Shown here piece by piece: positions 485 through 21,021 of a stretch of DNA of 38,031 nt. The notes beneath the pieces were generated by a model that did no database searches, was not told where the DNA came from, and saw only the letters and a program-made list of their open reading frames with translations. Source of the DNA: Acidobacteriota bacterium. GTDB lineage: Bacteria > Acidobacteriota > Terriglobia > Terriglobales > Acidobacteriaceae. Position 1 is the first letter of the stretch; every line of letters starts with the position of its first letter. The stretch is taken from assembly GCA_003225175.1 (NCBI GenBank), contig QIBA01000067.1, positions 1 to 38,031 on the forward strand. The letters are read 5' to 3'. A program made the position numbers and the translations under genes.

Positions 485-933
485 CGGTTCGCTGACTCAG
501 CTTTGCAATTGCAGACAAAGCTTCGCTATCGTCACTTAGGACGTACCTTTTGAAACTGCGCGATTGATTGGCTTACCAAAGGACTTCGCCGAAAAAAAAT
601 TTTCGGTGCGGCGAGGGCCCAAGGTCGCCCCGGAATTGTTAAAGGACTTTTAACGGAGCGAGTGCTTGCTGGTTCTTTCTCGCAAGCTTGAAAAAATGTA
701 AGCTGCTGGAAGCGATGTGGCAAGCAAAAAATTAATTTTTAGAGCTAAATCGCTTGTTCGCTAGGGTATTCTGCCGGGGATAATGTCCAATCTGGGAATT
801 TGAGTTTGCACATCTTGTGGAGCACCACAGCGCTGGCGTTGGGCCGGTAATTATGACACAGCGTGTGCTTACTTCCGGCTGTCATTTCTTACGGCTTATT
901 GTGTTGTCTAAATATATAGAGAGTAGGACGATT
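485..933. promoter_or_regulatory. Divergent intergenic region with four successive inverted repeats
   Basis: About 450 bp lie between the antiterminator gene and the chosen start of the PAP2-Wzi gene. Four inverted repeats follow one another: CCGAAAA/TTTTCGG at 589-606, GTTAAA/TTTAAC at 638-654, GCTTGC/GCAAGC at 664-687, and AAGCGAT/ATCGCTT at 710-755, the last enclosing an A/T palindrome. A GATAAT at 779-784, with TTGTTC at 754-759, is a weak promoter candidate for the rightward gene because its 19-bp spacer is long. Such a chain of stems would suit a structured leader, but which transcript carries it is not shown. I see no gene in this stretch. Confidence 0.4.
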
Positions 934-4708: not shown

Positions 4709-5203
4709 ATGGTGCGACAGCCGCCTTTGACACGCATACGCGTATTGATTGCCGAGAGCGATGCCATGGCGGCCCAACTTCTGGCGAACGTAGTTGCATG
4801 CGACCCCGAGCTGGAGGTGCTGGGATTCAGTGCGAATCCTATAGAGATAATGGAAATAGCGCTTCGCTTGAGTCCGGATGTAATGATCATAAGCGCATGG
4901 ATAGAGGACGATGCCAATCGCGGATTGGCGATTCTCCAACACCTCAGAGGCGAGCGTCCCAAAATGAAAAGCGTGGCGTTGCTGGACTCGCGCAAGCCTG
5001 AGATGGTTGTCCAGGCGTTTCGCATGGGCGCCTCAGGGGTCTTCTGCCGGACAAAGGGAGTGGATATGCTTCCCCGCTGCATCGTGGCCGTGCACCAAGG
5101 GCAAGTCTGGGCGGATAGTGAGGAATTGAAGTTAGTGATCTCTGCTCTCGCGGACGCTACCCATACAGAACATTGGGAGCGCGCAAAGGCATTCGCGAAC
5201 TGA
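4709..5203 (+). CDS. Receiver-only paralogue of the adjacent LuxR-type regulator
   Basis: These 164 residues are closely similar to the first 155 of the protein encoded at 3441-4145: AESDAMAAQLLANVVA, FRMGASGVFCRTK, MLPRCIVAVH. The helix-turn-helix is absent; the protein ends soon after ALADATHTEHW. The phospho-acceptor position is again serine (Ser62, VMIISA), and the acidic pocket reads E16-S17-D18. A free-standing pseudo-receiver cannot bind DNA itself, so it may pair with and titrate the full-length regulator. Alternatively it is a duplicate that has lost its output domain. GGGAGAAG lies directly before the ATG. It is the first gene of the co-oriented block and lies 35 bp before the acyltransferase gene. 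Confidence 0.8.
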   Translation: MVRQPPLTRIRVLIAESDAMAAQLLANVVACDPELEVLGFSANPIEIMEIALRLSPDVMIISAWIEDDANRGLAILQHLRGERPKMKSVALLDSRKPEMVVQAFRMGASGVFCRTKGVDMLPRCIVAVHQGQVWADSEELKLVISALADATHTEHWERAKAFAN

Positions 5204-5238
5204 GGAACTGATGTAAAAGGAGAGTTTGGGATTAGCTC

Positions 5239-5979
5239 ATGGAAAAAAAAGGCGCAAACAAATTGGCCATTATTGAGACGGAAGAAATAGGGCCGGACAC
5301 TTCGATTGCTGAATTCGCAATCATACGTAAGGGTGCGAAACTTGGACGCGGCGTTATCGTCCATCCTTTTGTCGTAATCGAATCCGGCGTTTCCATCGGG
5401 GATGGTGTAGAGGTCTATCCGTTCTCGCACATCGGTAAAGAACCAAATGGGGCTGGTGCCGTTGCTCGCGAGCCTGTATTCGACCGGCACGTTGCAATCG
5501 GTGCTGGCTGCTGCATAGGACCCAATGCTGTGATTTATTGCGATGTGCGAATCGGTGAATCAACCTTGATCGGCGATGGAGCATCGGTCCGTGAGAAATC
5601 GTCCATTGGTTCAAAGTCCATCATCGGACGCCACGCAACAATCGGTTACGAATGCAGGATTGGGTCAAACACGAAAATCATGGATCATTCGGGCATTGCG
5701 GGGAAGTCTGTGGTTGGCGACCGCGTTTTCATCGCAAATGATGTCCAATCTGCGAATGACAACCTTATTGGCAGCAAAGGATGGAGAGACGACATCACCG
5801 GTCCGGTAATTGAGGACGACGTAATGATCGGGGAGGCCGCTGTGCTCCTGCCCGGCATCGTTGTTGAAAGAGGGGCCATCATCGGCTCGGGCGCGCTCAT
5901 CAACCATAATGTGAAGCCCGACAGCATGATGCTCACTATGCCCGCTAGAGCCGTTCCTCGCGAACTGCACAAGGAATAA
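5239..5979 (+). CDS. Left-handed beta-helix (hexapeptide-repeat) acyltransferase
   Basis: Nearly the whole 246-residue chain is built of [IV]-G-x-x hexapeptide repeats (IGDGVEVYPFSHIG, IGAGCCIGPNAVIY, IGESTLIGDGASV, IGSKSIIGRHATIG). It has a mid-chain loop around SANDNLIGSKGWRD and a C-terminal MPARAVPREL tail. Enzymes of this fold move acetyl or longer acyl groups from CoA or ACP to sugars; examples are LpxA, WlbB and QdtC. Since ACP-bound acyl groups and a 3-amino sugar are both expected from this operon, I infer that it could be the transferase joining the two. It could equally be a plain N- or O-acetyltransferase. Codons 2-4 contain an A8 run (5243-5250), a possible slippage site. The nearest AAGGAG (5217-5222) is rather far from the ATG. 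Confidence 0.78.
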   Translation: MEKKGANKLAIIETEEIGPDTSIAEFAIIRKGAKLGRGVIVHPFVVIESGVSIGDGVEVYPFSHIGKEPNGAGAVAREPVFDRHVAIGAGCCIGPNAVIYCDVRIGESTLIGDGASVREKSSIGSKSIIGRHATIGYECRIGSNTKIMDHSGIAGKSVVGDRVFIANDVQSANDNLIGSKGWRDDITGPVIEDDVMIGEAAVLLPGIVVERGAIIGSGALINHNVKPDSMMLTMPARAVPRELHKE

Positions 5980-6001
5980 CTCTCATTTTGCTTGGAACCA
6001 T

Positions 6002-6802
6002 ATGCTTGTTTGCAATCCACTCGGCATTAAAACGTTTCCGATTCTGGACGATCACTTTCCGTTCTTGAATGATGACTTTGCTTCTTTCGTGTCCCAAGAG
6101 TGCGTCGACATCTGGTCGGTGTCTCTAAACGACTTCAGGCATCAATTCGTCGCTTTTCATGATTTGCTTTCAGCCGAGGAGCGGACGAGATTGGCACAGT
6201 TTCTCTTTGCGCGGCATCGTGAGCGCTACGTCCTCGAACACGGCACTCGAAGAATTGTTCTCGCAGCTTATCTACGGGAGAAGCCCGCAACAATTGAGTT
6301 CTCTTATGGTCCGTTTGGCAAACCTGAGATCAAACATGCATCTGACCGATCAACGCCCTGCGCCCTTTCTTTCAGTAATGCAGGAACTGAGGACCTGGCC
6401 TTGATCGCGATAAAACCTGGCGCATCGGTGGGCATCGACGTTGAGCGCGTGCGTCAGCTTGCTGAGCTGAATGAAATTGCGGCTCGATGCTTCTCAAAAC
6501 GGGAGCGGCGATTGTTGGCAGATCTCGCATTCGAAAAACGAACCACTTACTTTTTTTTTCTTTGGACTGCAAAGGAAGCCGTACTCAAGGCAACCGGCGA
6601 AGGAATCACTCGCAATCTGGAGAATGTGGAAGTGATTATGGAATCCGACGATTGTGACTCCGCCCACGCAATTGACCGTTGCGATCCACACACCAAATGG
6701 CTAATTCAACGCTTTTTCCCCCGGCCCGGCTATATCGCATCGATTGCTCTGCGTGAGGGCTCTTACGCAGTTCGTCATCGCCAATTAGTGACGTCCCAGT
6801 AA
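6002..6802 (+). CDS. Sfp-type 4'-phosphopantetheinyl transferase
   Basis: This enzyme moves the phosphopantetheine arm of CoA onto the conserved serine of carrier proteins, and so would activate the NRPS, PKS and ACP encoded downstream. The 266-residue length and motifs fit the Sfp branch: GPFGKPEI (103-110), SFSNAG (123-128, in place of the usual NLSHS), GIDVE (144-148, Mg2+ site) and WTAKEAVLKATGEG (188-201). The histidine of the third block is missing, a common variation outside Bacillus. A run of nine T (6551-6559) encodes the three phenylalanines just before the WTAKEA motif, so slippage there would knock out the enzyme. It lies 22 bp after the acyltransferase gene and 53 bp before the NRPS. 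Confidence 0.9.
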   Translation: MLVCNPLGIKTFPILDDHFPFLNDDFASFVSQECVDIWSVSLNDFRHQFVAFHDLLSAEERTRLAQFLFARHRERYVLEHGTRRIVLAAYLREKPATIEFSYGPFGKPEIKHASDRSTPCALSFSNAGTEDLALIAIKPGASVGIDVERVRQLAELNEIAARCFSKRERRLLADLAFEKRTTYFFFLWTAKEAVLKATGEGITRNLENVEVIMESDDCDSAHAIDRCDPHTKWLIQRFFPRPGYIASIALREGSYAVRHRQLVTSQ

Positions 6803-6855
6803 TCTGTCCTCCACACTCCAAAGACAGCCACATCATTGAGGCAAGGCAAACAGCT

Positions 6856-9800
6856 GTGATAGCAAACCACACCGAAACCGGTGCAGCCGCCGATCGATAC
6901 CCTCTAACTCCGCTGCAGCAAGGCATGCTGTTTCACCACTTGGCAGAGCCTGGCTGTGGTACCGACATCGAGCAGATAGTATGCACGCTTCACGAGCAGT
7001 TAGATGCTGCTGCATTGCGGTCTGCCTGGGACAGGACGGTCGAGCGGCACGAGCAACTGCGCACGATCTTTGGCTTTGCCGACAACGGCGATCTTATTCA
7101 GATCGTGCAGTATCCTTCAACGGTTTCATGGCAAGAACTCGATTGGCGACACCTCCCCGTCGAAAATCAGCTACTGGAATTTGAGTCGTTTCTCGGGAGT
7201 GATCGCCGTTCCGAATTCAATTTGCACGAAGCTCCTCCGAATCGGCTTTGTCTAATACGTACAGCCGATGCAGAGTATCGGATGCTTTGGACCTTTCATC
7301 ATGCCCTACTCGACGGCAGGTCATTTCCCATTGTTCTGGGAGAAGTATTTGCGTTCTACGAATCGATCCGGAAGGGAAAGGCGTTAGTTCTGCCTTGGCC
7401 GCGCCGCTATAGGGACTACATCGATTGGCTGCGATCGCATAACTCTGCCCAGTCCGAATCGTACTGGCGTGCTGAATTAGCAGGCTTTACCGCGCCCAAT
7501 TCATTCGGCATCGATCAGTCCTCAGGCGAAGGAACACAAGACGGGGGTCTGTGGGGACAGCATCGCATCACCTTGGATGCGCTTGCATCTTCTGCCTTGA
7601 AGGAATTCGCTCAGAATCATGGGTGGACTCTCAACACCGTTGTGCAAGGTGCGTGGGCTTTGCTCTTGCACCGGTACAGCGGCGACGAAAGCGTAGCGTT
7701 CGGCGCGGTTCGTGCATGCCGCGCTTCAACGATTGATGGTGCCGAGAACATGGTTGGATTTTTCATCAATACGTTGCCGCTGCGAGTCAGAGTGAACTCG
7801 GAGACTCTTCTTGGGAACTGGCTTACAACATTGCGTGCCCAATGGCGCGAGTTGCGCGATCACGAGCACACTCCGTTGGTTCAAATTCACAAGTGGAGTG
7901 ACGTACCACATGACAAACCGATGTTCGACAGCATCGTGATGTTCGAAAACTACGAACTCAACGAACGCTTGCGAGAAAAGGGGGGGAGTTGGGCAACTCG
8001 AACGTTTCACTTGTACGAACAAACCGGATATCCGTTAACACTGACTGCATACGCAGGGTCCGAGTTGCAGTTACAAATTGGCTTCAACCACGCTCGATTT
8101 TCTGATGCTGCTATTCGACGAATGCTCGGGCACTTGAAGACGATCTTACTTTCCATGGAGGAGGCAGGACCAGACCAGCAGCTCAAGGCAGTTCGTTATC
8201 TCACCGATCGCGAAGAGAGTCAATGCATTGTCGAATGGAACGAAACGGCCGAGGAGCATCTCCAGGGGAGCACCCTGCACCAACAATTTGAAGCGCAGGT
8301 AAAAGCATCACCGGAGGCAGTAGCGGTTGTCTTCGGATCGCAAGAACTCACTTATCTTGAATTGAATGATCGCTCCAACCAGTTAGCACACTGGCTGCAA
8401 GAAGAGGGCATAGGGCCGGAGGATCTCGTCGGAGTATGCATTGAGCGCTCCCCGGAGCTGATCGTCGCGATGCTTGGCGTATTGAAAGCAGGAGCCGCTT
8501 ACGTGCCGCTGGACCCACAATTCCCGGCAGGTCGGTTGGCTCAGATCGTCTCGGATTCCGGAGTACAAATCATCCTTACTCAACGTAAGTTGACGACTCT
8601 GTTCTCGGCTTACTCAGCCCGACTGGTCCCGCTAGATACAGAGGAGTTGATGTCGCAACCCCGCGAACACTCCGTTAGCGAAGTGGATCCACACAATCTG
8701 GCATATGTGATCTTCACATCTGGTTCCACAGGCCGGCCGAAGGGCGTGCAAGTTGAGCATCGAGCTGTAATCAACTTTTTGTTTTCGATGAAGCGCCAGC
8801 CCGGAATCGAATCCAGCGACATATTACTGGCCGTGACGACGTTTTCCTTCGACATAGCGGCATTGGAGATTTTCTTGCCTCTCTTGAATGGCGCCCGCCT
8901 CGTAATCGCGGATCGAGAGTCGACGATGGATTGCCGCCGTTTAGGCAGACTAATTGAAGATAGCGGGGCAACCGTCATGCAAGCGACGCCAGCCACATGG
9001 AGAATGCTGATAGAACATGGCTGGGCGGGGCGCAAGGGGATGAAGATTCTCTGTGGCGGCGAAGCGCTCCCACCGGAGTTAGCCCGAGAGTTGCTACCTC
9101 GCTGCTCATCCCTCTGGAACATGTACGGGCCCACCGAAACCACAATTTGGTCAACCACCTGGCAAGTGACTTCAGCAACGAATCCTGTTCCTATCGGTAA
9201 GCCAATCGCAAATACGCAGACATACATCTTGGATCCCGATTTGAATCCTGTTCCGGTCGGCGTTTCGGGCGAGTTATTCATTGGGGGCACGGGTGTAGCG
9301 CGAGGTTACTGGCGGGCTCCGCAGCTCACAGCTGAGCGATTCCTACCGAATCGGTTCAGACCTGAGCACGGTGGACGCATGTACCGAACGGGTGACATTT
9401 GCCGCTGGCGCAGCGACGGCGCTCTTGAGTGTCTCGGGCGAAGTGATCAGCAGGTAAAAGTTCGGGGATTCCGGATCGAGTTAGCAGAAGTTGAAGCAGC
9501 TCTGGGCGACCATCCTCATGTTTCGCAGGCAGTGGTTGTAGTTCAAAAACGGGATGACGCTGAGAAGCGTTTAGTCGCTTACGTCGTCTCGCGGCCCGGA
9601 CAAATTCCGGCGGTGGAAGAACTGCGCAACTACTTGATGCAGCGGCTGCCGGATTACATGGTTCCGTCGGCGTACATGGCGCTCGATCATTTGCCGCAAA
9701 CCGCGAACGGCAAGGTAGATCGCAAAGCTCTCCCCGCTATCGATGAGATGCTATCTGAGCTGGATGCGGAATGCGCCCAACCCATTAGCGAAACAGAAAA

Positions 9801-10110
9801 GAAAATTGCGCGAGTTTGGTCGCAAGTACTGGGAACGAACAGAGTCGGGCGTAACAGCAACTTCTTCAATCTCGGTGGGGACTCTCTTTCCATCCTTCGC
9901 GTTCGCTACATGCTTGAACGAGAGTTTTCAAGGGAACTGGCTGTTGTCGAGCTATTCGGCCATCCGACGATCGAGTTACTGGCTAATTTTCTTCAAGCTG
10001 CGCATTGTGAATCCAGGTTGAAATTCCAAAGCAGAGAAAATGCAGATATCAGAAAAGGCTTGTTGCGACGGCGACTCTCTCTGAGAAATAGTCGGGTTCA
10101 TTCATCATGA
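6856..10110 (+). CDS. Non-ribosomal peptide synthetase module, C-A-PCP, glycine-type code
   Basis: The 1084 residues contain one complete elongation module. The condensation domain (about 12-440) starts YPLTPLQQGML and has the active motif HHALLDG at 148-154. The adenylation domain (about 470-965) shows TSGSTGRPKG (621-630), NMYGPTE (755-761), YRTGD (843-847) and NGKVDRKAL (951-959, Lys953). The carrier domain has FFNLGGDSLS with Ser1010. Aligning by eye to GrsA gives specificity residues D-I-L-Q-L-G-M-I-W-K, close to the published glycine code DILQLGLIWK. There is no epimerase, methyltransferase or thioesterase. The start is GTG 6856. The stop overlaps the PKS start by 4 bp (ATGA), so the product probably passes directly to that PKS. 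What the N-terminal C domain accepts is unknown. Confidence 0.95.
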   Translation: MIANHTETGAAADRYPLTPLQQGMLFHHLAEPGCGTDIEQIVCTLHEQLDAAALRSAWDRTVERHEQLRTIFGFADNGDLIQIVQYPSTVSWQELDWRHLPVENQLLEFESFLGSDRRSEFNLHEAPPNRLCLIRTADAEYRMLWTFHHALLDGRSFPIVLGEVFAFYESIRKGKALVLPWPRRYRDYIDWLRSHNSAQSESYWRAELAGFTAPNSFGIDQSSGEGTQDGGLWGQHRITLDALASSALKEFAQNHGWTLNTVVQGAWALLLHRYSGDESVAFGAVRACRASTIDGAENMVGFFINTLPLRVRVNSETLLGNWLTTLRAQWRELRDHEHTPLVQIHKWSDVPHDKPMFDSIVMFENYELNERLREKGGSWATRTFHLYEQTGYPLTLTAYAGSELQLQIGFNHARFSDAAIRRMLGHLKTILLSMEEAGPDQQLKAVRYLTDREESQCIVEWNETAEEHLQGSTLHQQFEAQVKASPEAVAVVFGSQELTYLELNDRSNQLAHWLQEEGIGPEDLVGVCIERSPELIVAMLGVLKAGAAYVPLDPQFPAGRLAQIVSDSGVQIILTQRKLTTLFSAYSARLVPLDTEELMSQPREHSVSEVDPHNLAYVIFTSGSTGRPKGVQVEHRAVINFLFSMKRQPGIESSDILLAVTTFSFDIAALEIFLPLLNGARLVIADRESTMDCRRLGRLIEDSGATVMQATPATWRMLIEHGWAGRKGMKILCGGEALPPELARELLPRCSSLWNMYGPTETTIWSTTWQVTSATNPVPIGKPIANTQTYILDPDLNPVPVGVSGELFIGGTGVARGYWRAPQLTAERFLPNRFRPEHGGRMYRTGDICRWRSDGALECLGRSDQQVKVRGFRIELAEVEAALGDHPHVSQAVVVVQKRDDAEKRLVAYVVSRPGQIPAVEELRNYLMQRLPDYMVPSAYMALDHLPQTANGKVDRKALPAIDEMLSELDAECAQPISETEKKIARVWSQVLGTNRVGRNSNFFNLGGDSLSILRVRYMLEREFSRELAVVELFGHPTIELLANFLQAAHCESRLKFQSRENADIRKGLLRRRLSLRNSRVHSS

Positions 10111-13100
10111 AGCAAGAACAACTCGATCACATTGCAATTGTTGGTCTGGCAGGGCGGTTCCCGGGTGCACCCGATCTGGAACAGTTCTGGCGCAATCTTC
10201 GCGACGGAGTAGAGTCCATTACCAGGTTGGACGACCGAGACCTCCTGGCATCGGGTGTGGATCCCAGCCTGCTCGCCACCGACCATTATGTAAAAGCAAG
10301 TCCAATTCTGGATGGAATCGAATACTTCGATGCTGAATTTTTCGGCTTCTCGCCACGAGAAGCAGAAGTAACGGATCCGCAGCATCGAGTCTTTCTGGAA
10401 TGTGCGTGGGAAGCACTGGAAAATGCGGGCTATGACCCCAATCAGTACGGTGGTCGAATCGGTGTTTTCGCCGGCGCCGGTCTTCATTCCTATTACCACG
10501 ACTACCTGGTCACAAATCAAAAATTAATCGAGACTTTGGGAGAACTCCCGCGCTTTCTTGCCGTTGAAAAGGATTTTCTTAGTACGCGGGTTTCCTATCG
10601 GCTGAACCTCAAGGGCCCTAGCATTTCGTTGCAGACTGCATGTTCGACCTCACTCGTTGCGGTGCATTTTGGCTGTCAAAGCCTGCTAAACGGCGAATCC
10701 GATATGGTCTTGGCTGGTGGCGTGTCTATCAAGCTTCCTCAGACCGCCGGGTATCTTTATCAAGAAGGAACGATCCTGTCGCCGGATGGTCACTGCCGTG
10801 CCTTTGATGCCGCAGCGGCTGGGACGATTTTCGGCAGTGGCGCGGGAATAGTCATATTGAAGCGCTTATCGGATGCTCTTTCTGATGGCGACACTATTCA
10901 CGCGGTAATCCGCGGGTCCTGCGTCAACAACGATGGATCGATTAAGGTGAGCTACACCGCTCCAAGCATTGATGGACAGGCCCGTGCGATTTCCGAAGCT
11001 CTGGCAATGGCAGACGTCGACGCGAGCGAGATCAGTTACGTCGAAGCCCACGGGAGTGGAACTTCTCTGGGCGACCCTATCGAAGTCGCCGCATTGACAA
11101 AGGCATTTCGGGAAACCACAGCCGAAATGGGATTTTGCGGAATTGGCTCAATTAAAACTAATGTCGGCCATCTTGATGCTGCAGCCGGAGTCGCCGGCTT
11201 GATCAAAACCGTCTTGTCCCTTGAGCATGGAAAGCTGCCGCCCAGCTTGCATTTCAAAGGACCAAATCCTTCGATCGATTTTTGTAACAGCCCGTTCTTT
11301 GTTCAGAGCACTTTATCGGATTGGAAGTCAAAGAATGGCCGGCGGATCGCGGGCATCAGTTCTTTTGGAATTGGCGGGACAAATGCGCATGTGATTGTTG
11401 AAGAGGCGCCAACTGTTCATTCAGACGCTGCGCCGAAAGCATGGGAAATCATTCCGATCTCGGCCAGAACTTATGAAGCTCTGGAAAAGGCGACTGATCG
11501 GCTCAATTCGCATCTCAGATCGCAATCCGAACTCGCCGTTTCAGATGTTGCATTCACTTTGCAGGAAGGGCGCCGTGCGTTCTCGCATAGGAGGGCCATT
11601 GTCGCGCCAAGTATTGAGCACGCTGTCGAGTTGCTCGAAAAGCGAACAGCGAAACGCGTTCACAGTTCAAGGGCAACTGAGAAAGCTCTTGAGACGGTAT
11701 TCATGTTCCCGGGGCAGGGCGCGCAACATGCGAACATGGGGCGAGAACTCTATGAGAACGAATCGACATTCCGGCAACACATCGATCAGTGTGCAGAGTA
11801 TCTGCTGCCAATCCTCGGCTTGGATTTGAGACGTGTCCTCTACTCGCATTCACTCGATGAGAATGCCGATGCACAACTGAAGCAGACCCGGATCACACAA
11901 CCTGCAGTCTTTACGGTCAGCTATGCGCTGGCACAGTTGTGGTTGTCTTGGGGAATCACTCCAAAAGCGATGATCGGTCATAGTCTTGGAGAGTACGTAG
12001 CGGCCACGCTTGCTGGCGTTTTCGAGCTCGAAGATTGCCTGGCGCTCGTGGCGGAGCGTGCTCGTCTGATGCAGCAACTTCCGCCGGGCAGCATGCTTGT
12101 CGTGCACAGGGCGGAGCATCATCTTCGGTCGCGATTGAACGGCGACATTTCCATTGCTGCAGTGAATGCTCCTGAAGTCACCGTGCTGTCCGGGCCAACG
12201 TCCGCAATCAAGGACCTAGCACAGTTGCTGGCCAAGGATGGGGTCGCGGTTCAGCCGCTAACTACCTCGCACGCTTTCCACTCTTCGATGATGGATCCGA
12301 TCATCGCGATGTTTCGAGCGGTCGCAGCTGCAGTTCCCAAACGAATACCGCGGATATCCATTGTGTCCACGGTGACAGCAGACTGGATGACGCCGGAACA
12401 AGCTACTGACGCGAATTATTGGGCGCAACAGATTCGAAGTAGTGTGCGTTTCAGCCCGGCGCTCTTGAAAGCGCTCGAGAACAGCGAGGGCAACTTGCTG
12501 GAGGTAGGACCCGGGAATTCACTGAGCACACTTGCCAAGCTTCACTTGAAATCCTCTCAGCAAAATAGAGTGTTCCACTCGCTGCCCCATGCCAAAGATG
12601 AGCGTTCCGAACTGGAAAACCTGCTGAGCACTGTTGGGGCGCTGTGGGTGTCAGGCGCGCCCGTAGACTGGAGGCGGTTGCGCAAGAATCGTGGACAGAG
12701 GGTACCACTTCCCACCTATCCATTCGAGCGTCAGCGGTTCTGGATTGAACCGGCGAGGCCACCAGCTCAAATTTTCATAACTACCGAAATTGTCGAGAAA
12801 GCACAGGATCTTCTCGCTCAAGCAAGCGCTAATACAAACGGCTGTCGAGAGCATAGTCAGCTTGCGAGGAATGAGACAGTGGACACGAAACCTGTGTCCA
12901 CGATCCTCAACATTTCATCAGAAATGTCCGTTGAGGAGACATTAACTAGTCTCTGGCAGGAGGCGCTCGGCGTTTCGCAGGTTGATGTGGACGATAATTT
13001 CTTCAATCTGGGCGGTCAGTCTCTATTGGCGCTGAGCCTCATAACCCAGATTGGACGCGCATTCGGCGCACGGTTTTCCCTGGCTTCTCTCGTTGGCGCC

Positions 13101-13499: not shown

Positions 13500-13519
13500 T
13501 ACTGAGCGTAAATTCTGCC

Positions 13520-14698
13520 GTGAATTCTATGCAAAAGCCTTTGCTGACGTTTTTGATCGCGGGGTTCCAGCATGAGCGCTTCGTTCGAGAGGCGGTGGAA
13601 GCCGCGTTCGCACAAACGTATTCGCCTCTAGAGATCATCTTGTCTGACGATTGTTCTCAGGATGGAACCTTCGAGCTAATGCGTCAAGCTGCGGCAGCAT
13701 ATCGCGGTCCGCACCACATTGTGCTGAATCGAAACCCGATTCGGCGCTCGCTCGGGGGGCATCTCAACCAACTCATGGGGATGTCAACTGGGGAGTTCAT
13801 CGTCATCGCCGCGGCAGACGATGTTTCTGCGCCCGAAAGGACGTCGGCAATCTACGAAGCCTGGAACTGTGGTGGCCGCAAAGCTACTTCCATCCATTCG
13901 GCGTATGTCCAGATTGACGAGAATGGGAGAGAGATCGCAAACGCCTTCCCGGAACGGGCTAAACACCAGTCCGACGTTCCGCCGAGTCCCTCCGATTTTG
14001 TCCGTACACTACGACCCACTGTGTTCGGATGCACGCACGCCTTCTCGAAGAAGTTGTTCGATGTATTCGGAAACGTCCCCGAAGATCTGATTCATGAAGA
14101 CGACGTACTAGGGCTGCGCTCACTGCTGGCGGGAAGCATAACCTTCATTGATCGCCCCCTGGTCCGCTATCGCATTCACGGCAACAATGTCTATGCGGCC
14201 CAGAAACAATGCGATACCCGAGAGAACCTGAGCCAGCTCGCTGCGCAAGAAGCCAAAGATAGAAGAAACATTCACAATCGCAAAATCATGTACGTTGCAT
14301 TTCTGTCGGACCTGGTGAAAGCCCAACGATTGTCACTGATTGCCGACGAGGAATTCAAAGCAGCAAGTCTCGAGGCGCTTCAACGGCGCCGCTATTTTCA
14401 ATGGATTGAGGAGTACTTGGAGAGTGGCTTCGTTTCTAAGCTCCGGAAATTGAACCACCTCAGGCACGAGCGCTTGGAACCAGGGGATTATCGCATTCTC
14501 TTAGTCCGCCTCTTGCCTGTGCAGAGCCGCCTACGCGTTCGACTGGCACTGAACTATGTCGCGCGCATGCGGCGCTATGCCATGTCCGCCTTGCGTTTGC
14601 TTGGGCAGTTGCGAATTGGAGCGCGTCCCTTGCGCGAGCAGGAAAACTGGGGCGGTGTTCCACGCGTCTTTGTCGGCCGGTTCGCTCGTTCGAAATGA
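13520..14698 (+). CDS. Family 2 glycosyltransferase
   Basis: This 392-residue protein opens with the GT-A nucleotide-binding pattern of GT2 enzymes: LTFLIAGFQHERFV, then ILSDDCSQDGTFELM. It carries a DxD-like AAADDVSAPER near 97-107 and an acceptor-side HEDDVLGLR near 192-200. It has no clear membrane segment, although the C-terminal 60 residues are strongly basic, as in enzymes that sit on the inner leaflet. GT2 enzymes transfer a sugar from an NDP donor to a lipid-linked or protein acceptor; the donor here is probably the amino sugar made by the next two genes. The start is GTG 13520 or ATG 13529; no strong ribosome binding site decides between them. Confidence 0.87.
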   Translation: MNSMQKPLLTFLIAGFQHERFVREAVEAAFAQTYSPLEIILSDDCSQDGTFELMRQAAAAYRGPHHIVLNRNPIRRSLGGHLNQLMGMSTGEFIVIAAADDVSAPERTSAIYEAWNCGGRKATSIHSAYVQIDENGREIANAFPERAKHQSDVPPSPSDFVRTLRPTVFGCTHAFSKKLFDVFGNVPEDLIHEDDVLGLRSLLAGSITFIDRPLVRYRIHGNNVYAAQKQCDTRENLSQLAAQEAKDRRNIHNRKIMYVAFLSDLVKAQRLSLIADEEFKAASLEALQRRRYFQWIEEYLESGFVSKLRKLNHLRHERLEPGDYRILLVRLLPVQSRLRVRLALNYVARMRRYAMSALRLLGQLRIGARPLREQENWGGVPRVFVGRFARSK

Positions 14699-14725
14699 AC
14701 CCGTCACGTTAGCCTCCCTCACTGG

Positions 14726-15178
14726 ATGGAAACCATGAATAGTCAATTCTCTCTGCAGAATATCTCCGTGCAGGATTGCACGACAATTGATTTGGACCGA
14801 ATCACAGATCCGCGCGGCAACCTCACATTTCTTGAGAGCGGCCGTCACTTGCCGTTCGATATCAAGCGTGTGTTCTACCTTTACGATGTTCCGGGCGGGG
14901 CTGACCGGGCTGGACACGCGTTGAAAACCTGTCACCAGTTCCTGATTGCAATGTCAGGCAGCTTCGACGTCGTTGTTTTTGATGGAAAGAACAAACATCG
15001 TTTCCATCTCAACCGCTCGTACTACGGCGTGCACCTCCCGCCTATGATATGGCGTGAGATGGATAACTTCTCCTCAGGATCAGTGTGCCTTGTGCTCGCT
15101 TCGGAGTTCTACGACGAAAAAGACTATTACCGCAACTACCGCGACTTTCTTCGCGCCGTAACAGGTCTTGAAGCATGA
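14726..15178 (+). CDS. dTDP-6-deoxy-hexos-4-ulose 3,4-ketoisomerase (FdtA/QdtA/Tyl1a-like)
   Basis: The 150-residue single cupin domain matches the WxcM/FdtA family in length and pattern: [14 protein letters not shown] near 23-36, [18 protein letters not shown] near 49-66, [14 protein letters not shown] near 71-84, and [10 protein letters not shown] near 109-118. These enzymes shift the keto group of dTDP-4-keto-6-deoxyglucose from C4 to C3, so that a partner aminotransferase can place an amino group at C3. That partner gene follows with a 4-bp ATGA overlap, as in fdt, qdt and tyl clusters. I cannot tell from sequence whether the gluco (Qdt) or galacto (Fdt) isomer is made. The substrate must come from RmlA and RmlB, which are not in the window. 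Confidence 0.9.
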
Positions 15179-16302
15179 AAGTCCCGTTTCTCGATTTTTC
15201 CGGACCTTATGCCGAGCTGAAACCGGAGCTGGACGACGCATACTGCCGCGTCATGCAATCGGGATGGTACATCCTCGGCCGTGAAGTCGAAGCCTTCGAG
15301 CAGGAGTTCGCGTCTTACTGCGGCGTCAAACACTGTGTCGGCGTCGGAAATGGATTGGATGCATTGCACCTGGTGCTGCGTGCGATGGAGATTGGGTCAG
15401 GTGATGAGGTGATTGTTCCCTCCAACACCTATATAGCAACTTGGCTCGCTGTTTCTTATGCGGGTGCAATCCCCGTCCCAGTCGAGCCGGACCCAAGCAC
15501 GTGCAACATCGATCCCGCCAGAATAGAAGAGGCAATCACGAATCGAACGAAGGCGATTGTACCGGTCCATCTTTATGGCCAGCCTGCTGACATGGACCCG
15601 ATCCTGGAACTCGCGTCCAAATACTCACTTAAGATCATCGAGGATAATGCGCAAGCACAAGGCGCGAAATATAAGGGACGTCGCACCGGGGGCCTCGGCG
15701 ATGCTGCCGGCAACAGTTTTTATCCCGGCAAAAACTTAGGCGCCTTTGGCGATGCAGGTGCCATTACTACAAATGACGATGACATAGCCGATAGAGTACG
15801 CACTCTGCGCAATTACGGATCCAGGACTAAATACAGTAATGACTACAAGGGCTTCAATTCGCGCCTCGATGAATTTCAGGCAGCATTTTTGCGGGTGAAG
15901 CTCCGCAAATTAGACGAGTGGAATAACCGGCGACAGGCTGTCGCATTCCGCTACATCAAGGAATTTCAGAGTATTCCCGAACTGGTGTTACCTCACATTA
16001 GAGACTGGGCAGATCCAGTCTGGCACCTCTTTGTTGTACGCCACCTGGCTCGGAAAGAGCTTCAGAGACAGCTCACTACCGCCGGAATTGGAACGCTGAT
16101 TCATTACCCGATACCGCCGCATCAATCGCGCGCGTACGCAGATGATGCTACTACTCCCAAGTCTTTGCCGATTGCCGAATTTCTTTCCTCCTCCGTCTTA
16201 AGTCTTCCAATGGGCCCGCACCTCACAGACTCGCAAATGGAGGCTGTAATCTCCGCGGCCACGAAGGCGACTGCTATCTGTGCGCCAGAACTAGTGGCTT
16301 GA
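15175..16302 (+). CDS. DegT/DnrJ/EryC1/StrS sugar 3-aminotransferase (FdtB/QdtB-like)
   Basis: This 375-residue PLP enzyme is close in pattern to the 3-aminotransferases of Qui3N, Fuc3N and desosamine pathways. [21 protein letters not shown] lies near 77-97, IIEDNAQ holds Asp157 facing the pyridine nitrogen, and [15 protein letters not shown] holds Lys186 as the Schiff-base lysine. It would use glutamate to aminate C3 of the 3-keto sugar made by the preceding ketoisomerase, giving a dTDP-3-amino-3,6-dideoxyhexose. The gene is translationally coupled to the ketoisomerase gene and ends where the next gene begins. A 4-aminotransferase role is possible but less likely beside an FdtA-type partner. 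Confidence 0.93.
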
Positions 16303-16310
16303 ACCAGCGT

Positions 16311-18491
16311 ATGAGATCGTGGCTCCATCTCGCAGTACTCTTGTGCATTTGTTCTTATGCACAGGCCCAGCAACCCCTTGTTGCGATTCACGTCTCGGAG
16401 CTCACCGAGCGATTGGAAACCATTCCAGCGGGCGCGGCTACGCCCTCAGGAGCCAACACCACTGGTAAGGAATGGTGGACTCCATGGTGGCACTACTTCG
16501 TCATGCATGAATCCCTCGAGGAAGCGCTCCGCTCGGATGGAACGCCCTTCGTCGTGGTCACTGACTCCGACATCGCTTCAGGAGCTTTGATTACCGATAA
16601 GGGAGTGCCCAGGTATCCCATCGTCATCAGCCTTGCTGCGGAGGTAGTTAGCGATGATGAGATCACGCCATTGCTCAACTATCTCTCCTCCGGTGGTTTT
16701 CTCTTTGTGGGGTCATCTTCGTTTACGCGCAGACCTGATGGAAGCTCGCGCGGGGATTTTGCCCTGGCGAGCGCAATGGGCCTGCACACGATGAGTCCGC
16801 AACTTCAAAACTGGACAAAGAACACTACTCTCACCAAAGTTGTTGATCATCGGGTGGTAGAAAATATCCCCTTGGGTAAGCTCAGTTGGACCATGCCGTT
16901 GACGGACGATGATGTTTCCTGGGGTACATCCGTGGCACGAAAGGGCCCGCCAGGGCACGTGATTCAGCGGGAACACTTCGTTTGGAAAGTGAAAGCCGAC
17001 ACTGCGACGGTTCTTGCCATCACGTCCGATGGCCTTCCGTACATCAGCATCCAGAACTATGGTCGAGGATCCTTGATTTTTGACGCGGCGATGCAGCCTC
17101 TGATAGGAAACGGCGGCTGGGCTCCAGGAATGTACGCCTATGAGATTTTCCGAGGTGCGATCGAGTGGGCATTCGACTCCGCGAATCTTCCAATCATCAG
17201 AGTGAGTCCTTGGCCGTATCAGTACAACGCCGCGTACATGGTCAGGCATGACTTTGAAAATACGCCAAGCTCCATTCGCGCCATCGAGGAGTCCGCAAAA
17301 TTCGACAGTTCTTTCGCGGCTAAAGGGGAATACTACTTTTGTACGGGAACACTCCGGACAGAGATGGGTAATTCGCCGGAGACGATAGATAGCCTGCGAA
17401 GGGCCGTGCGCTTATACGGAGCCACCATTGGTTCTCACAATGGAGGTCTTCCAAATGTCGGGAACAGTGAACTCCAGACACGCGATCGCGATTATTGGCA
17501 TTGGGGACCTGACGAGCTAATAGATTTGCGAACGGCCGGATTTCAAGGTGGAGCAAACTATGCCGCTACTTCGCTAAGCAAGTCGCTCGATGACATCGCG
17601 GGTTGGATGCAAGGTATCCAAACTAATACTCGCACGTTTTCTGCACCCTATTTTAATTCGACGAGAGACGAGTCTTATCAGATCCTGGAGCAACTCCGGA
17701 TCGTCACCGCTGGGGAACAGAAGCTCACACCGTTCCCACATTGGACCGTTTCAACTCGAACGCCCGGCAGGAGATTCGCTTTCCTAACCCTACCCGTTAG
17801 TGATTGGTACGTCGGCTCGCAGGTGGCGCAGTCCATGGAGGTTGGCCACTCACAGTCCAGCATTCGAGCTTTGGTCGACCACTATTATCAGCTCGGAGCT
17901 CTGCTGAATCTCTATACCCACAGGCCTTCCAATGATGTGAATCCAGCGGAATATATACGTTTCACGTCGAGCAAGTCCAACATCTGGCCGGTGAACGCGT
18001 CCACACTCTTCGAGTGGTGGAAACGCCGATCAGGAGTGCGGATATTGCCCGATTTTTCAATTGCACGGAACACACTCACAGTGGCTACAACCATTAAAGG
18101 CGCAGTTGATCCGGACACTGCCGTCGAGCTTGTAATCCCGAACGGAATGAGCGCAAATGATGTGCACGTCAAACTCAACGGCGAGGCAGCTGGGGCCAAT
18201 GCGTACAGAATCTACGGGCGCGGGATCAAGATTCGTATTGGTTTGGCGGTTTCCAGGGTCGAGGTGAGTTATCCATTTGTGGCCGCCGTGCAACCACATG
18301 AGAGCTACCGGGCTGTCCGCCCGAATCGCCCACGCTTACTCAAAGGAGCAATCAACCTACTGAGTGCGATCTCAACCGGTCGCATTCTGAGGGCTGCTGG
18401 AATAATGGCTCTTCTTGCGCTTTTCGGCTTGTGGAGCTTTAGACGCACATGGTGGCGGACAAGCCATTGCCACACAACATACTCGGAATAA
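16311..18491 (+). CDS. Periplasmic NodB-like (polysaccharide deacetylase-like) protein with C-terminal membrane anchor
   Basis: The protein has about 726 residues. A signal peptide (RSWLHLAVLLCICSYAQA) leads into a 280-residue region that looks amidotransferase-like (PIVISLAAEVVSDDEITPLLNYLSSGGF, cut here to its core). A NodB-like region follows with RHDFE (Asp314) and GATIGSHNG (His376), which resemble the metal-binding D and H motifs of carbohydrate esterase family 4. Near the C-terminus there is one membrane helix (IMALLALFGLW) and a basic tail. I infer a metal-dependent deacetylase acting on the glycan in the periplasm, but the match is distant and activity may be lost. A TTG at 16299 overlaps the preceding stop; I prefer ATG 16311 because it begins the signal peptide. 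Confidence 0.68.
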   Translation: MRSWLHLAVLLCICSYAQAQQPLVAIHVSELTERLETIPAGAATPSGANTTGKEWWTPWWHYFVMHESLEEALRSDGTPFVVVTDSDIASGALITDKGVPRYPIVISLAAEVVSDDEITPLLNYLSSGGFLFVGSSSFTRRPDGSSRGDFALASAMGLHTMSPQLQNWTKNTTLTKVVDHRVVENIPLGKLSWTMPLTDDDVSWGTSVARKGPPGHVIQREHFVWKVKADTATVLAITSDGLPYISIQNYGRGSLIFDAAMQPLIGNGGWAPGMYAYEIFRGAIEWAFDSANLPIIRVSPWPYQYNAAYMVRHDFENTPSSIRAIEESAKFDSSFAAKGEYYFCTGTLRTEMGNSPETIDSLRRAVRLYGATIGSHNGGLPNVGNSELQTRDRDYWHWGPDELIDLRTAGFQGGANYAATSLSKSLDDIAGWMQGIQTNTRTFSAPYFNSTRDESYQILEQLRIVTAGEQKLTPFPHWTVSTRTPGRRFAFLTLPVSDWYVGSQVAQSMEVGHSQSSIRALVDHYYQLGALLNLYTHRPSNDVNPAEYIRFTSSKSNIWPVNASTLFEWWKRRSGVRILPDFSIARNTLTVATTIKGAVDPDTAVELVIPNGMSANDVHVKLNGEAAGANAYRIYGRGIKIRIGLAVSRVEVSYPFVAAVQPHESYRAVRPNRPRLLKGAINLLSAISTGRILRAAGIMALLALFGLWSFRRTWWRTSHCHTTYSE

Positions 18492-18526
18492 ATTCCCCGT
18501 AGGTCCAATCCAGGAAATAATCAAGA

Positions 18527-18553
18527 GTGAACCCGTTCGATGAACGCGTTCAC
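18527..18553. promoter_or_regulatory. 27-bp near-perfect palindrome before the ACP gene
   Basis: GTGAACCCGTTC at 18527-18538 and GAACGCGTTCAC at 18542-18553 pair at 11 of 12 positions around a 3-base centre. It sits 23 bp before the ACP start and just upstream of a consensus AGGAGG (18565-18570). It could be a dimeric-regulator site or an RNA hairpin that raises or limits expression of the downstream genes. Confidence 0.5.
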
Positions 18554-18575
18554 TTGCTTTGACTAGGAGGAAAAC

Positions 18576-18866
18576 ATGCAGGAAACACTGAATCAGGAAG
18601 TCGAATCGACGATCCGTACTTTCATTGACGTAAATGTCATCAACGGCGCCGCGTGGACATACAACAATGAGACACCACTCTTGGATGAATCGATCCTCGA
18701 TTCGCTAGGAGTCGTCGATCTTGTGGAATTTTTACAGAAGCGCTTCAGGATCCGAATCCAGCAAGAGGAAGTCACTCGGAAGAATTTCCGGTCAGTCTCC
18801 ACCATTGCTGCATTTGTCCGCGACAAAACAAGCCCCATGCATTCGTCCGTGTCCAACGGCAACTAA
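18576..18866 (+). CDS. Free-standing acyl carrier protein
   Basis: At 96 residues this is the usual size for an ACP. The phosphopantetheine site is LLDESILDSLGVVDL with Ser43, followed by the helix II/III pattern LVEFLQKRFRIRI and a last helix, STIAAFV. It belongs to the same type as the carrier-like C-terminus of the PKS (LLENNLIDAMDFL), but here the serine is kept. It has the strongest ribosome binding site in the operon (AGGAGG, 5 bases before ATG), which fits a carrier needed in excess. It could bring the starter to the NRPS, replace the dead PKS carrier, or present the finished acyl group to a sugar acyltransferase. These roles are inference. Confidence 0.88.
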   Translation: MQETLNQEVESTIRTFIDVNVINGAAWTYNNETPLLDESILDSLGVVDLVEFLQKRFRIRIQQEEVTRKNFRSVSTIAAFVRDKTSPMHSSVSNGN

Positions 18867-18900
18867 CGGCGATCTGCTACAGCGCCGGCAAGGAGTATCC

Positions 18901-19464
18901 ATGCGATTAATGAATTTCTATCAGCAGTGTCGAATCGCGAAGTACCGTCTGCTCTCTAACTGTGCGAATGTGGAAGGCAAGCCCACGATCCTGCAACCGG
19001 TCCACCTGGCAGGAAAAGGAACGATCCGCTTTAAAGGAAACGTAAAACTGGGTTGTTTTCCTTCAGCCTATTATCTTAGCGGCTACACCTACATCGAGGC
19101 CCGCACGGAGGAAGCTGTCATCGAGATTGGCGACGGCGTGTGGATGAATAACAACGTGGCAATCATCAGCAACGGCGCAGGCATCAAGATCGGTAACCGA
19201 TCCATGCTAGGAACCCACGTGGAAATCCTCGATTCCGATTTCCACGATTTGCATCCGGACCGTCGTGGTGAGCCAGGTAAGTGCGCCAATGTCGAGATTG
19301 GCGAAAACGTCATGATCGGACCAAACGTCAAGATCTTCAAAGGTGTTCGCATCGGGAACAACTGCATTATTGCAAATGGTGCCGTGATCCGTCGTTCGGT
19401 TCCAGACAACATGCTCGCTTACGGAAATCCGGCTCGCCAAGGTTTCGGGCTCCTGCAGGACTAG
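18901..19464 (+). CDS. MAT-type hexapeptide acetyltransferase
   Basis: The protein has 187 residues. The first 60 are not repeats; the rest is a left-handed beta-helix of the maltose/galactoside acetyltransferase type (IEIGDGVWMNNNVAI, IKIGNRSMLGTHV, IGENVMIGPNVKI, IGNNCIIANGAVI) ending in YGNPARQ. A DFHDLH segment near 115-120 may supply the catalytic histidine. These enzymes usually put acetyl from acetyl-CoA on a sugar hydroxyl. AAGGAGT at 18889-18895 precedes the ATG, so I chose this start over a longer frame reaching back into the ACP gene. It differs from the acyltransferase at 5239 and may be the O-acetylating partner of that enzyme. Confidence 0.86.
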   Translation: MRLMNFYQQCRIAKYRLLSNCANVEGKPTILQPVHLAGKGTIRFKGNVKLGCFPSAYYLSGYTYIEARTEEAVIEIGDGVWMNNNVAIISNGAGIKIGNRSMLGTHVEILDSDFHDLHPDRRGEPGKCANVEIGENVMIGPNVKIFKGVRIGNNCIIANGAVIRRSVPDNMLAYGNPARQGFGLLQD

Positions 19465-19479
19465 AACTCCTCTAAATCC

Positions 19480-21021
19480 ATGGCAACAGTGCAGGCGGTC
19501 GCTTCCATCCCTAAGACGGAAGCAGGACGGCAATCCTACGGTCGCATTCTGAAATCCTCTGCTCTCATCGGAGGATCGACCGCTGTCAACATGCTGTTCA
19601 CCCTCGTCAGGACCAAAGCAATGGCACTGCTTCTCGGTCCCTCGGGCATCGGACTACTGGGCGTTTATAGTTCGATCGCCGACTTAGTCCGTAGTATCGC
19701 AGGCCTAGGAATCAATACCAGCGGCGTCAGGCAAATTGCAGAAGCCGTGGGAACCGGCGAGGCCGAGCGTGTCTCCTGTACGGTAATCACGCTTCGCCGG
19801 GTCGCCTTCTATTCGGGTTCGATGGGAGCTCTGCTGCTCATTTTGTTTTCCCGCCCGATTTCCTGGGTGACGTTTCATGATTACCAACACATCGGAACCA
19901 TTGCCTCGCTTGGCATTGCTACCTTTCTTCTCGATATCTCTGATGCGCAGAGCGCTCTTGTTCAGGGAATGCGACGCATCACAGATCTCGCCAGGATCAA
20001 TGTCTTCGGCGGTCTTTTTGCTGCCGCCGTCAGCATTGCCGTCGTCTATATGTGGCGGGAGAGAGGTATCGTCCCATGCTTGATCGCTACTGCCCTCATA
20101 AGCATTGCTACATCCTGGTGGTACGCCCACAAAATTAAAATCGAATCCATTCGTATCAGTTGGGGAAAAGCATTTCGCGAAGCATCTGAGCTCGTGAAAC
20201 TTGGTTTCCTGGTGATGACAAATGGCCTGGCGACACTTGCTGCTGCATATGTGATTCGATTGTTCGTGTTGAGAACCTCCGGACTAAAGAGCGTTGGATA
20301 CTATCAAGCCGCGTGGGGTGTTTCTGCGGTGTGCATAAGCTTCATCCTGCAAGCAATGGGAAGCGATTATTATCCGAGATTAACGGCCGTCTCGAATAAT
20401 CGGAATGAGTGCAATCGTTTGATGAACGAACAAGTCGAAGTAGGAATGCTGATGGCCGCCCCAGCGATGCTGATCGGATTGAGTCTTGCACCGGTGGTGA
20501 TGACGCTTCTCTATTCGGCGCGTTTCGGCGGAGCCGTAGAAATCTTCCGTTGGTTCTCGATTGGTATGTTCCTCCGCGTTATCACCTGGCCCATTGGCTA
20601 CATCATTCTGGCAAAAGGCGAACGCAAAATATTCTTCTGCTCCGGCGTGCTCGCGAATTCGGTGTATTTGATCCTCGCATGGATAGGACTACGGACCCTC
20701 CATTTGACGGGTATTGGCGTTGCCTTTTTTGTCTTGCAGGTATTGCACAACCTGGCCATCTTCCTTGTGGCACGCCATCTCACTGGATTCACGTGGTCAG
20801 CTGCAAATGTGCGACTAGCAGCGATCATGCTGCCTTTACTCGGAATTGTTTTCGGAAGCTGGTATTTTTTATCTCCAATTCAGGTCGCGGTCTTAGGCAC
20901 TCTGATCGGAATTCCAGCTGCGTACTATTCCCTCAAGACACTTTGTGGATTGCTTCCCTCGGAGCAACTACTCAGACCCACAAAGAAGCTCGGTCTGCTT
21001 TTGGGTTTTTCGCCCAGATAA
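19480..21021 (+). CDS. Wzx-type flippase / O-antigen translocase (MOP superfamily)
   Basis: The 513 residues form about 12 membrane helices, for example SALIGGSTAVNMLFTLV, GALLLILFSRPISWV, VRLAAIMLPLLGIVFG and VAVLGTLIGIPAAYY. The N-terminal signature VRTKAMALLLGPSGIGLLG is typical of O-antigen translocases such as WzxE. The family moves undecaprenyl-pyrophosphate-linked repeat units across the inner membrane. It is the last gene of the co-oriented block, 15 bp after the acetyltransferase gene, and is the main evidence that the operon makes an envelope glycan rather than a soluble metabolite. No Wzy polymerase is visible nearby. Confidence 0.92.
   Translation: MATVQAVASIPKTEAGRQSYGRILKSSALIGGSTAVNMLFTLVRTKAMALLLGPSGIGLLGVYSSIADLVRSIAGLGINTSGVRQIAEAVGTGEAERVSCTVITLRRVAFYSGSMGALLLILFSRPISWVTFHDYQHIGTIASLGIATFLLDISDAQSALVQGMRRITDLARINVFGGLFAAAVSIAVVYMWRERGIVPCLIATALISIATSWWYAHKIKIESIRISWGKAFREASELVKLGFLVMTNGLATLAAAYVIRLFVLRTSGLKSVGYYQAAWGVSAVCISFILQAMGSDYYPRLTAVSNNRNECNRLMNEQVEVGMLMAAPAMLIGLSLAPVVMTLLYSARFGGAVEIFRWFSIGMFLRVITWPIGYIILAKGERKIFFCSGVLANSVYLILAWIGLRTLHLTGIGVAFFVLQVLHNLAIFLVARHLTGFTWSAANVRLAAIMLPLLGIVFGSWYFLSPIQVAVLGTLIGIPAAYYSLKTLCGLLPSEQLLRPTKKLGLLLGFSPR

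Follow-up and report, generated by a model that had tools for sequence, protein, structure and literature searches.

The sugars Fuc3NAc and Qui3NAc are made by the FdtA-FdtB-FdtC and QdtA-QdtB-QdtC pathways, which combine a ketoisomerase, a pyridoxal phosphate (PLP) aminotransferase, and a left-handed beta-helix (LbH) acyltransferase. We found the same enzyme types, with an acyltransferase closest to QdtC, in an operon of the acidobacterial contig QIBA01000067.1 (C67), which belongs to a draft genome of 5.73 Mb in 268 contigs with 98.9% completeness and whose whole length of 38,031 nucleotides is referred to here as the window. Unlike in the Fdt and Qdt pathways, the acyltransferases of the window are embedded with a nonribosomal peptide synthetase-polyketide synthase (NRPS-PKS) line and a free acyl carrier protein (ACP), and its FdtA reads HAL and not HAH.

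Other systems share further parts with this operon. A carrier and chain-building enzymes likewise stand in 3-amino-sugar loci that have ACP, FabH, and AMP-ligase genes (L152 from Acidovorax, L133, L132, L147, L141, L115, and L188), for which VioM/VioS/VioR of the Pseudomonas syringae viosamine pathway offer a comparison, and L152 also shares the flippase. Those modules are discrete type II systems with no NRPS, whereas the window has modular enzymes of the condensation-adenylation-peptidyl carrier protein (C-A-PCP) and ketosynthase-acyltransferase-ACP (KS-AT-ACP) types. Ordinary hybrid NRPS-PKS lines (G055:C82, G355:C1, and Nostoc L199) have KSs 52 to 63% identical to that of the window and A-PCP upstream in many cases, but the line of the window consists of one NRPS and one PKS module, lacks a release domain, and shares its operon with sugar genes (found in 0 of 62 such loci, mostly of about 6 kb). 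Exosortase-A-type exopolysaccharide loci carry an ACP, an AMP-ligase, and hydrolases 1 and 2. The window likewise has a small ACP in an envelope locus, but by Pfam its operon is without hydrolase or ligase, and hydrolase-1/2-like genes, scoring below cut-offs, are in the C40 locus of the same genome.

We propose that the operon builds a custom acyl group for a surface glycan, in which it would decorate a 3-amino-3,6-dideoxyhexose. To this proposal, the best reading because of the operon structure, the missing release domains, the envelope genes, and the recurring ACP modules, we give about an even chance. A dedicated acyl group had also been put forward in an earlier sequence-only reading of the window. 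It now has a comparative precedent in 7 of 80 FdtA loci (kept from at least 542 relatives in named GTDB genomes), but no relative with joined NRPS/PKS and sugar genes was found, and the two acyltransferases of the operon, HexA and HexB, may be acetyltransferases.

Organization of the operon

By open reading frame (ORF) calls and a check of their spacing, 12 co-directional genes occupy positions 4709 to 21021 on the + strand, with intergenic gaps of 15 to 84 bp and three overlaps of 4 bp each (NRPS/PKS, FdtA/FdtB, and FdtB with the gene for a protein of 730 amino acids [aa]). The sequence-only reading had counted thirteen genes, one too many, while its common direction, gaps under 90 bp, and three overlapping junctions held. 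Promoter-like and terminator-like sites in the window sequence were no more frequent than in shuffles (5 versus 11.2 and 16 versus 18.1, respectively), and it is thus from gene spacing only that we infer a single transcript. A chance neighborhood of the 12 genes was considered and judged unlikely because of the three overlaps and the gaps of up to 84 bp. Base composition does not decide this question, since the 12 genes (GC 0.49 to 0.56, third-position GC 0.52 to 0.64) resemble the flanking Wzi (0.55/0.63) and dehydrogenase (0.55/0.61) genes; a MacB gene beyond the flanks is the only clear outlier (0.61/0.73).

Pfam matches bore out the phosphopantetheinyl transferase (PPTase), C-A-PCP, KS-AT-ACP, GT2, FdtA, aminotransferase, two hexapeptide proteins, and flippase named earlier. 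That list was incomplete, however, as it lacked the C-terminal carrier-fold domain of the PKS with its Ser-to-Ala change, the HAL of FdtA, and the exported deacetylase-like 730-aa protein. The NCBIfam scores of the sugar-side proteins were mostly under the family cut-offs.

The NRPS-PKS line and its carriers

All the domains of a hybrid NRPS-PKS (C, A, PCP, KS, AT, and ACP) are present with their motifs, namely, HHALLDG, FTSGSTGRPKG, and LGGDS in the NRPS and the KS Cys with two His, GHSLGEY, HAFH, and LGGQS in the PKS. At the usual anchors the A domain reads D I L Q L G M I W, which we take to be a glycine code, and the HAFH of the AT presumably denotes malonyl. Read by these rules, the motifs suggest glycine for the A domain and malonate for the AT, in line with the substrates predicted earlier. 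Neither protein has a ketoreductase, dehydratase, thioesterase, or reductase by Pfam, leaving the hybrid without a release domain.

The free ACP claimed previously keeps the Ser of its DSL motif, but its scores are below the cut-offs of both Pfam (15.2 versus 20.8) and NCBIfam (AmcB, 38.7 of 80; OlsHI-ACP, 36.8; DltC, 28.3 bits). The C-terminal domain of the PKS aligns with this ACP and with four ACPs of other loci, having DA where all of those have DS. Pfam alone gave no carrier match for the domain. An AlphaFold2 model made with 5 sequences has four helices (mean predicted local distance difference test [pLDDT] score, 67; predicted template modeling [pTM] score, 0.52), and its top Foldseek matches were PCP, ACP, and DltC, just one of them with an E value below 0.001. 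The alignment and the model indicate a second carrier fold, which, because of the Ala in place of Ser, would not be phosphopantetheinylated at the usual position.

For the order of the line, we listed 19 loci around PKS relatives in 396 phylum genomes. An A-PCP stands directly before the KS in 13 of them, a carrier with no A domain in reach in 3, and nothing in reach or a contig edge in 3. In a tree of our KS and 28 others, of which 19 were NRPS-fed, the three KSs behind a carrier without A form a clade with that of L069 (support 90/91, below the tool's star). Our KS lies outside this clade, in an unresolved remainder that is mostly NRPS-fed. A basic tail ends 8 of 13 NRPSs, which stop before a separate PKS ORF (L070, L071, L072, L077, L079, L082, L085, and L087); NRPS and PKS are fused in 4 (L073, L075, L080, and L081), and L078 was assigned to neither class. 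The NRPS of the window has a basic tail (SRENADIRKGLLRRRLSLRN plus seven residues) directly before the PKS, a comparison made without a control set of NRPSs that do not precede a PKS. We prefer the order from glycyl-PCP to KS, as a preference suggested by these contexts and not as a proof.

The C domain scored 331 bits with McyB, 306 with PvdL, 224 with surfactin synthetase, and 33 with 7c1h, which we take to be a starter C domain. In a tree with 32 others, it grouped with 22 of them (support 100/100), and these have an epimerization (E)-like domain upstream in 8 cases, a carrier in 6, and nothing in reach in 8, the E-like domains being deduced from C-like stretches directly upstream. This tree places the C domain with D-donor types. 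We rejected lipo-initiation by a starter C domain, given the scores with 7c1h and McyB and the clade shared with E-fed C domains.

Sugar and envelope genes

FdtA matches its family profile PF05523 at 184 bits, against a cut-off of 23, and the solved structures 5tpu and FdtA 2pa7 at 124 and 102 bits. The aminotransferase has a full-length match to QdtB and overlaps FdtA; its closest solved relatives are 2oga (436 bits), which we take to be DesV, an antibiotic-sugar enzyme, and QdtB 3frk (430 bits, over residues 1 to 360). Both proteins support the 3-amino-6-deoxysugar pathway that had been proposed, and RmlB is encoded above its curated cut-off on contig C44 of the same genome. The best solved LbH match of HexA is QdtC (3fs8, E value of 2.2e-17), the next one having an E value of 4.1e-13. 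Relatives of HexA (45% and 52%) are near FdtA in L123 and L171 with no ACP/FabH/ligase module, so the transferase type alone is no proof of an unusual acyl group.

Where the reference FdtA has FHAHKK, that of the window has GHALKT, thereby missing the H-x-H pair, presumably His49/His51 of the FdtA active site; solved FdtA chains with N at either His exist (2pak and 2pam). HAH was found in 67 of 118 aligned FdtA stretches from the 80 loci and HAL in 7 (L111:781, L112:3807, L113:2283, L114:10001, L117:10001, L126:2425, and L138:4136), the latter including the four best-ranked loci, L111 to L114, though not the next two, L115 and L116. In a tree of 118 rows, the 7 HAL sequences and our own form one clade (98/90), a label clustering equaled in 0 of 500 shuffles, and the FdtA of L111 adjoins that of the window (99/93). 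As the clade spans Pseudomonadota, Myxococcota, Acidobacteriota, Chloroflexota, and Cyanobacteriota, HAL appears to be an inherited trait and not a local decay, and the sugar half of the operon has probably moved horizontally. As a separate observation, many of the loci L153 to L190, mostly from Bacteroidota and Fibrobacter, have tandem FdtA genes (e.g., L165:9606-10414), often with HAF or HAY in one copy and HAH in the other.

The flippase expected of a Wzx/Wzy-dependent glycan locus is present as a MOP family member (PF13440, 61.8 bits). Its relatives (36 to 39%) occur in the FdtA loci L111, L142, and L152, and a GT2 relative (36%) lies directly downstream of FdtA in L101. The 730-aa protein belongs to no Pfam or NCBIfam family. 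In a two-sequence comparison it was collinear with a protein of genome G219 (L061:6929-8860; 24% identity, E value of 2e-6) that has a Polysacc_deac_1 domain and a GH42M/ThuA-type region and is encoded near a GT2 synthase-like gene. The Asp motif is kept (HDFEN versus FDCEN), but by eye the CE4/NodB metal motif, HGDDH in relatives, has become HNGGL. A signal peptide and a C-terminal anchor were also judged by eye. An AlphaFold2 model without alignment (pLDDT, 33; pTM, 0.21) was discarded. This protein was matched in 1 of 150 genomes of the family, in 3 of 396 genomes of the phylum (two of these matches are partial and weak), and in none of the 12 genomes of 12 FdtA loci, a search with no positive control. 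Taken together, Wzx, GT2, the PAP2-Wzi gene upstream, and this predicted exported deacetylase-like protein point to the envelope, the direction that the sequence-only reading had also favored.

Carrier-based acyl modules and a second NRPS set

The seven FdtA loci with an ACP plus FabH and/or AMP-ligase were found by using queries from L152, L133, and L115. Their recurring genes encode ACP, short-chain dehydrogenase/reductase (SDR), metallo-hydrolase, FabH, AMP-ligase, and GNAT proteins. Pfam confirmed the SDR, FabH, and ligase of L152 and the hydrolase, FabH, and ligase of L133, whereas the three module ACPs tested had no Pfam match and were named by their DS motif and length. L152 has the order GNAT, ACP, SDR, hydrolase-like, FabH, ligase, FdtA, FdtB, and Wzx, the last being 36% identical to the Wzx of the window. 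As judged by gene content, carrier-based acyl supply beside 3-amino-sugar genes would be a recurrent design, in which the window has a modular NRPS-PKS in the same slot.

A second NRPS set is encoded on contig C40 (G000:C40:1-35000; L207, L060, and L208), comprising a PPTase, A-PCP, P450, C, and C-A-PCP, the NRPS being 36% identical to that of the window. The same contig encodes two exosortase-A-type hydrolases (104 to 105 bits, below the cut-off), a HAD-matching protein of 915 aa, and a polytopic protein without a Pfam match that looks flippase-like by eye. Around them are two initiating sugar transferases, glycosyltransferases, a heptose-kinase-like protein (below the cut-off), and a polysaccharide deacetylase. 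The NRPS core of this type recurs within the genus, in 3 of 6 genomes, and most of its neighbors are kept in G135 and G108; the congener loci are L104 and L209. NRPS genes therefore appear beside glycan genes twice in the genus, with a different make-up each time, which we count in favor of the proposal. Inspection by eye of the congener G135 also shows, at L103:3583-7428, a gene resembling Asn synthase, a free ACP with 42% likeness to that of the window, and a gene resembling AMP-ligases (27% to the window A domain), as well as an exosortase-like gene at L103:13078-13974.

Proposed pathway

In the pathway that we propose, RmlB, encoded elsewhere in the genome, would supply dTDP-4-keto-6-deoxyglucose, FdtA would move its keto group to C3, and the aminotransferase would aminate it. 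The PPTase would arm the carriers and the NRPS would load glycine, to which the C domain could add an upstream acyl group, the free ACP being the sole other carrier in the operon. One unreduced malonate unit added by the PKS would give an (acyl)amino-3-oxobutanoyl thioester, with the Ser-less carrier domain at the PKS end serving as a putative docking surface. Since there is no thioesterase, the chain would be released by an LbH acyltransferase (HexA or HexB), with the sugar amine as its direct acceptor. GT2 could then extend a polyprenyl-linked chain with the decorated sugar, Wzx could flip it, and the exported 730-aa protein might act on the glycan. The gene content, the motifs, the domain neighborhoods, and the trees were observed, and from them we deduce the substrates, the order of the line, the transfer to the sugar, the glycan product, and the docking role.

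More tentatively, and with somewhat less than an even chance in our view, a single-module NRPS that feeds a single-module PKS with a Ser-less docking carrier may be the dedicated acyl supply of a 3-amino-sugar N-acyltransferase, by which a template-built amino-ketide would be written directly into a surface polysaccharide, and, with the C40 set, the genus may repeatedly decorate its glycans by NRPS chemistry. If so, the products of modular assembly lines would include glycan substituents in addition to soluble metabolites. Such operons would be misread by any genome-mining tool that treats every NRPS-PKS as a metabolite cluster, and the release of NRPS/PKS chains would be a further catalytic role for LbH acyltransferases. 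The recurrence of carrier-protein acyl modules next to 3-amino-sugar genes across distant bacteria (7 of 80 FdtA loci) opens the idea to testing in named isolates, Acidovorax sp. SRB_14 among them.

Evidence against the proposal and alternative products

Several observations weigh against this proposal, whose main weakness is that a single draft contig is the only known source of the arrangement. Within the genus, the PKS was found in its own genome only of 6 (2540 bits; next, 102), and the nearest other NRPS and PKS among the long matches listed from 396 phylum genomes were at 47% and 54%. A genome-wide PKS scan found no relative, but its dependence on exact short peptides makes this weak evidence. 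FdtA was found at an E value of 1e-25 in 8 of 247 phylum genomes, including our own, and the 7 other loci (13 to 20 kb fetched) had no NRPS/PKS domain match. Matches to C, KS, AT, or carrier domains were likewise absent from all 80 FdtA loci, many of which end at contig edges (the closest, L111, is 3.3 kb); an A-like match occurred in 5 (L115, L133, L135, L152, and L171). The companions of FdtA in this set were the aminotransferase (71 loci), GT2 (25), HexA type (21), HexB type (21), and Wzx (11). None of eight operon proteins was matched at 1e-5 in the 62 NRPS/PKS loci (427 kb in total, most loci being about 6 kb long), a comparison with no positive control of its own. PKS matches at 1e-60 were present in 4 of the 12 genomes of 12 FdtA loci, the best (55% and 54%) in two Nostoc genomes, and 652 plasmid records had a PKS match, all below 60% identity. 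The NRPS/PKS and sugar genes, taken to belong together in the sequence-only reading, thus stand apart in the sampled relatives, an outcome which that reading had named as refuting it, although no orthologue of the NRPS/PKS pair was found in them, joined or apart. Among the titles and abstract openings listed from open-licence PubMed Central papers, none dealt with an NRPS or PKS acylating a glycan, which is weak as an absence; the NRPS mentioned in PMC10059132 is a plasmid siderophore gene.

Points internal to the operon have to be added. Its FdtA is without the second His of the active site, a loss that it shares with its clade. The KS of L069, 62% identical to ours, stands downstream of a PKS carrier and not of an NRPS, so that KS similarity alone cannot decide the order of the line. 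The C domain has a long branch (1.01) in its tree and may have changed its function, and by Pfam the operon has no E domain, acyl-ligase, or starter to explain its donor. The Pfam scan of 20 window ORFs also gave no Wzy and no initiating transferase; initiating sugar transferases are encoded on contig C40. In addition, none of the FdtA loci with HexA- or HexB-type proteins has an NRPS, and HexA or HexB may therefore be a plain acetyltransferase.

This last point, together with the lack of sugar-side genes in the 62 NRPS/PKS loci, also favors two products, HexA acetylating the sugar to Fuc3NAc or Qui3NAc for a glycan and the NRPS-PKS making a separate co-regulated small molecule, e.g., a tetramic-acid-like or lipoamino compound. 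We consider this unlikely, as the NRPS and PKS have no thioesterase, reductase, or other release domain, the GT2, FdtA, and aminotransferase genes follow directly after the PKS gene (gaps of 20 and 27 bp, then the 4-bp overlap), and the free ACP gene is placed among the sugar genes.

A secreted glycosylated metabolite, with the NRPS-PKS product as its aglycone and the 3-amino sugar attached, would fit the presumed DesV as top relative of the aminotransferase, as well as the larger NRPS-PKS proteins in which relatives of the NRPS and PKS sit. GT2 and MOP/Wzx flippases act on polyprenyl-linked sugars, however, and antibiotic sugars normally use GT1-type enzymes. The operon has both of the former, their relatives are in FdtA loci, and the 730-aa protein is related to one with a polysaccharide-deacetylase domain, and we consider such a metabolite slightly less likely still than two products.

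Least probable of all, with only a slim chance, is the reverse order. In it, acetoacetyl-ACP would come from the PKS and be condensed with glycine by the C domain, and an N-acetoacetyl-glycyl group (perhaps closing to a 3-hydroxy-3-methyl-5-oxoproline-like ring) would go onto the sugar. In its favor, the achiral donor would fit the clade of the C domain, and oxoproline groups occur on O-antigen amino sugars, which our literature search did not confirm. Against it, the KS neighborhoods and tree lean to a PCP-fed KS, and it is the NRPS, preceding the PKS, that has the basic tail.

Features of the window

The features are collected in Table 1. The start of HexB was taken as the ATG at 18901, which comes after the ACP gene and behind AAGGAG, whereas the ORF list gives 18721.

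Table 1. Positions of the operon genes, of one PKS domain, and of the upstream Wzi gene in the window
Feature	Positions	Strand	Evidence
PAP2 phosphatase plus Wzi capsule-assembly barrel, 846 aa; outside the operon, upstream	817..3357	+	Pfam PF14052, 343 bits; PF01569, 64 bits
Response-regulator receiver, first gene of the run	4709..5203	+	Response_reg, 27.9 bits (cut-off of 30.2 not reached)
HexA, LbH acyltransferase, QdtC-like	5239..5979	+	Hexapep, 118.8 bits; QdtC 3fs8, E value 2.2e-17
Sfp-type PPTase	6002..6802	+	ACPS, 68.8 bits
NRPS module C-A-PCP, predicted glycine, basic C-terminal tail	6856..10110	+	Pfam domains, motifs
PKS module KS-AT(predicted malonyl)-ACP, then putative pseudo-carrier domain	10107..13499	+	Pfam domains, motifs
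PKS C-terminal domain, predicted carrier fold, Ala for the phosphopantetheine Ser (IDAMDF)	13158..13496	+	Alignment, AlphaFold2 model, Foldseek
GT2 glycosyltransferase	13520..14698	+	Glycos_transf_2, 59.4 bits
FdtA-type 3,4-ketoisomerase, HAL not HAH	14726..15178	+	PF05523, 184 bits
3-Amino-sugar PLP aminotransferase, FdtB/QdtB type	15175..16302	+	DegT, 404 bits
730-aa protein, GATase-like and degenerate polysaccharide-deacetylase-like regions	16299..18491	+	No Pfam/NCBIfam family; distant relative
Free ACP, DSL Ser kept	18576..18866	+	Alignment; all profile scores below cut-offs
HexB, second LbH acyltransferase, WbbJ-like	18901..19464	+	Hexapep, 47.2 bits (longer ORF from 18721); WbbJ, 62.7 bits (cut-off 243)
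Wzx-type flippase	19480..21021	+	Polysacc_synt_3 (PF13440), 61.8 bits; WzxE model, 80.2 bits (cut-off 325)

The response-regulator gene at the start of the run (4709 to 5203, +) and its divergent neighbor (3441 to 4145, -) are inverted copies with a 75% match over 437 nucleotides, the former being without the helix-turn-helix end that is present in the latter.

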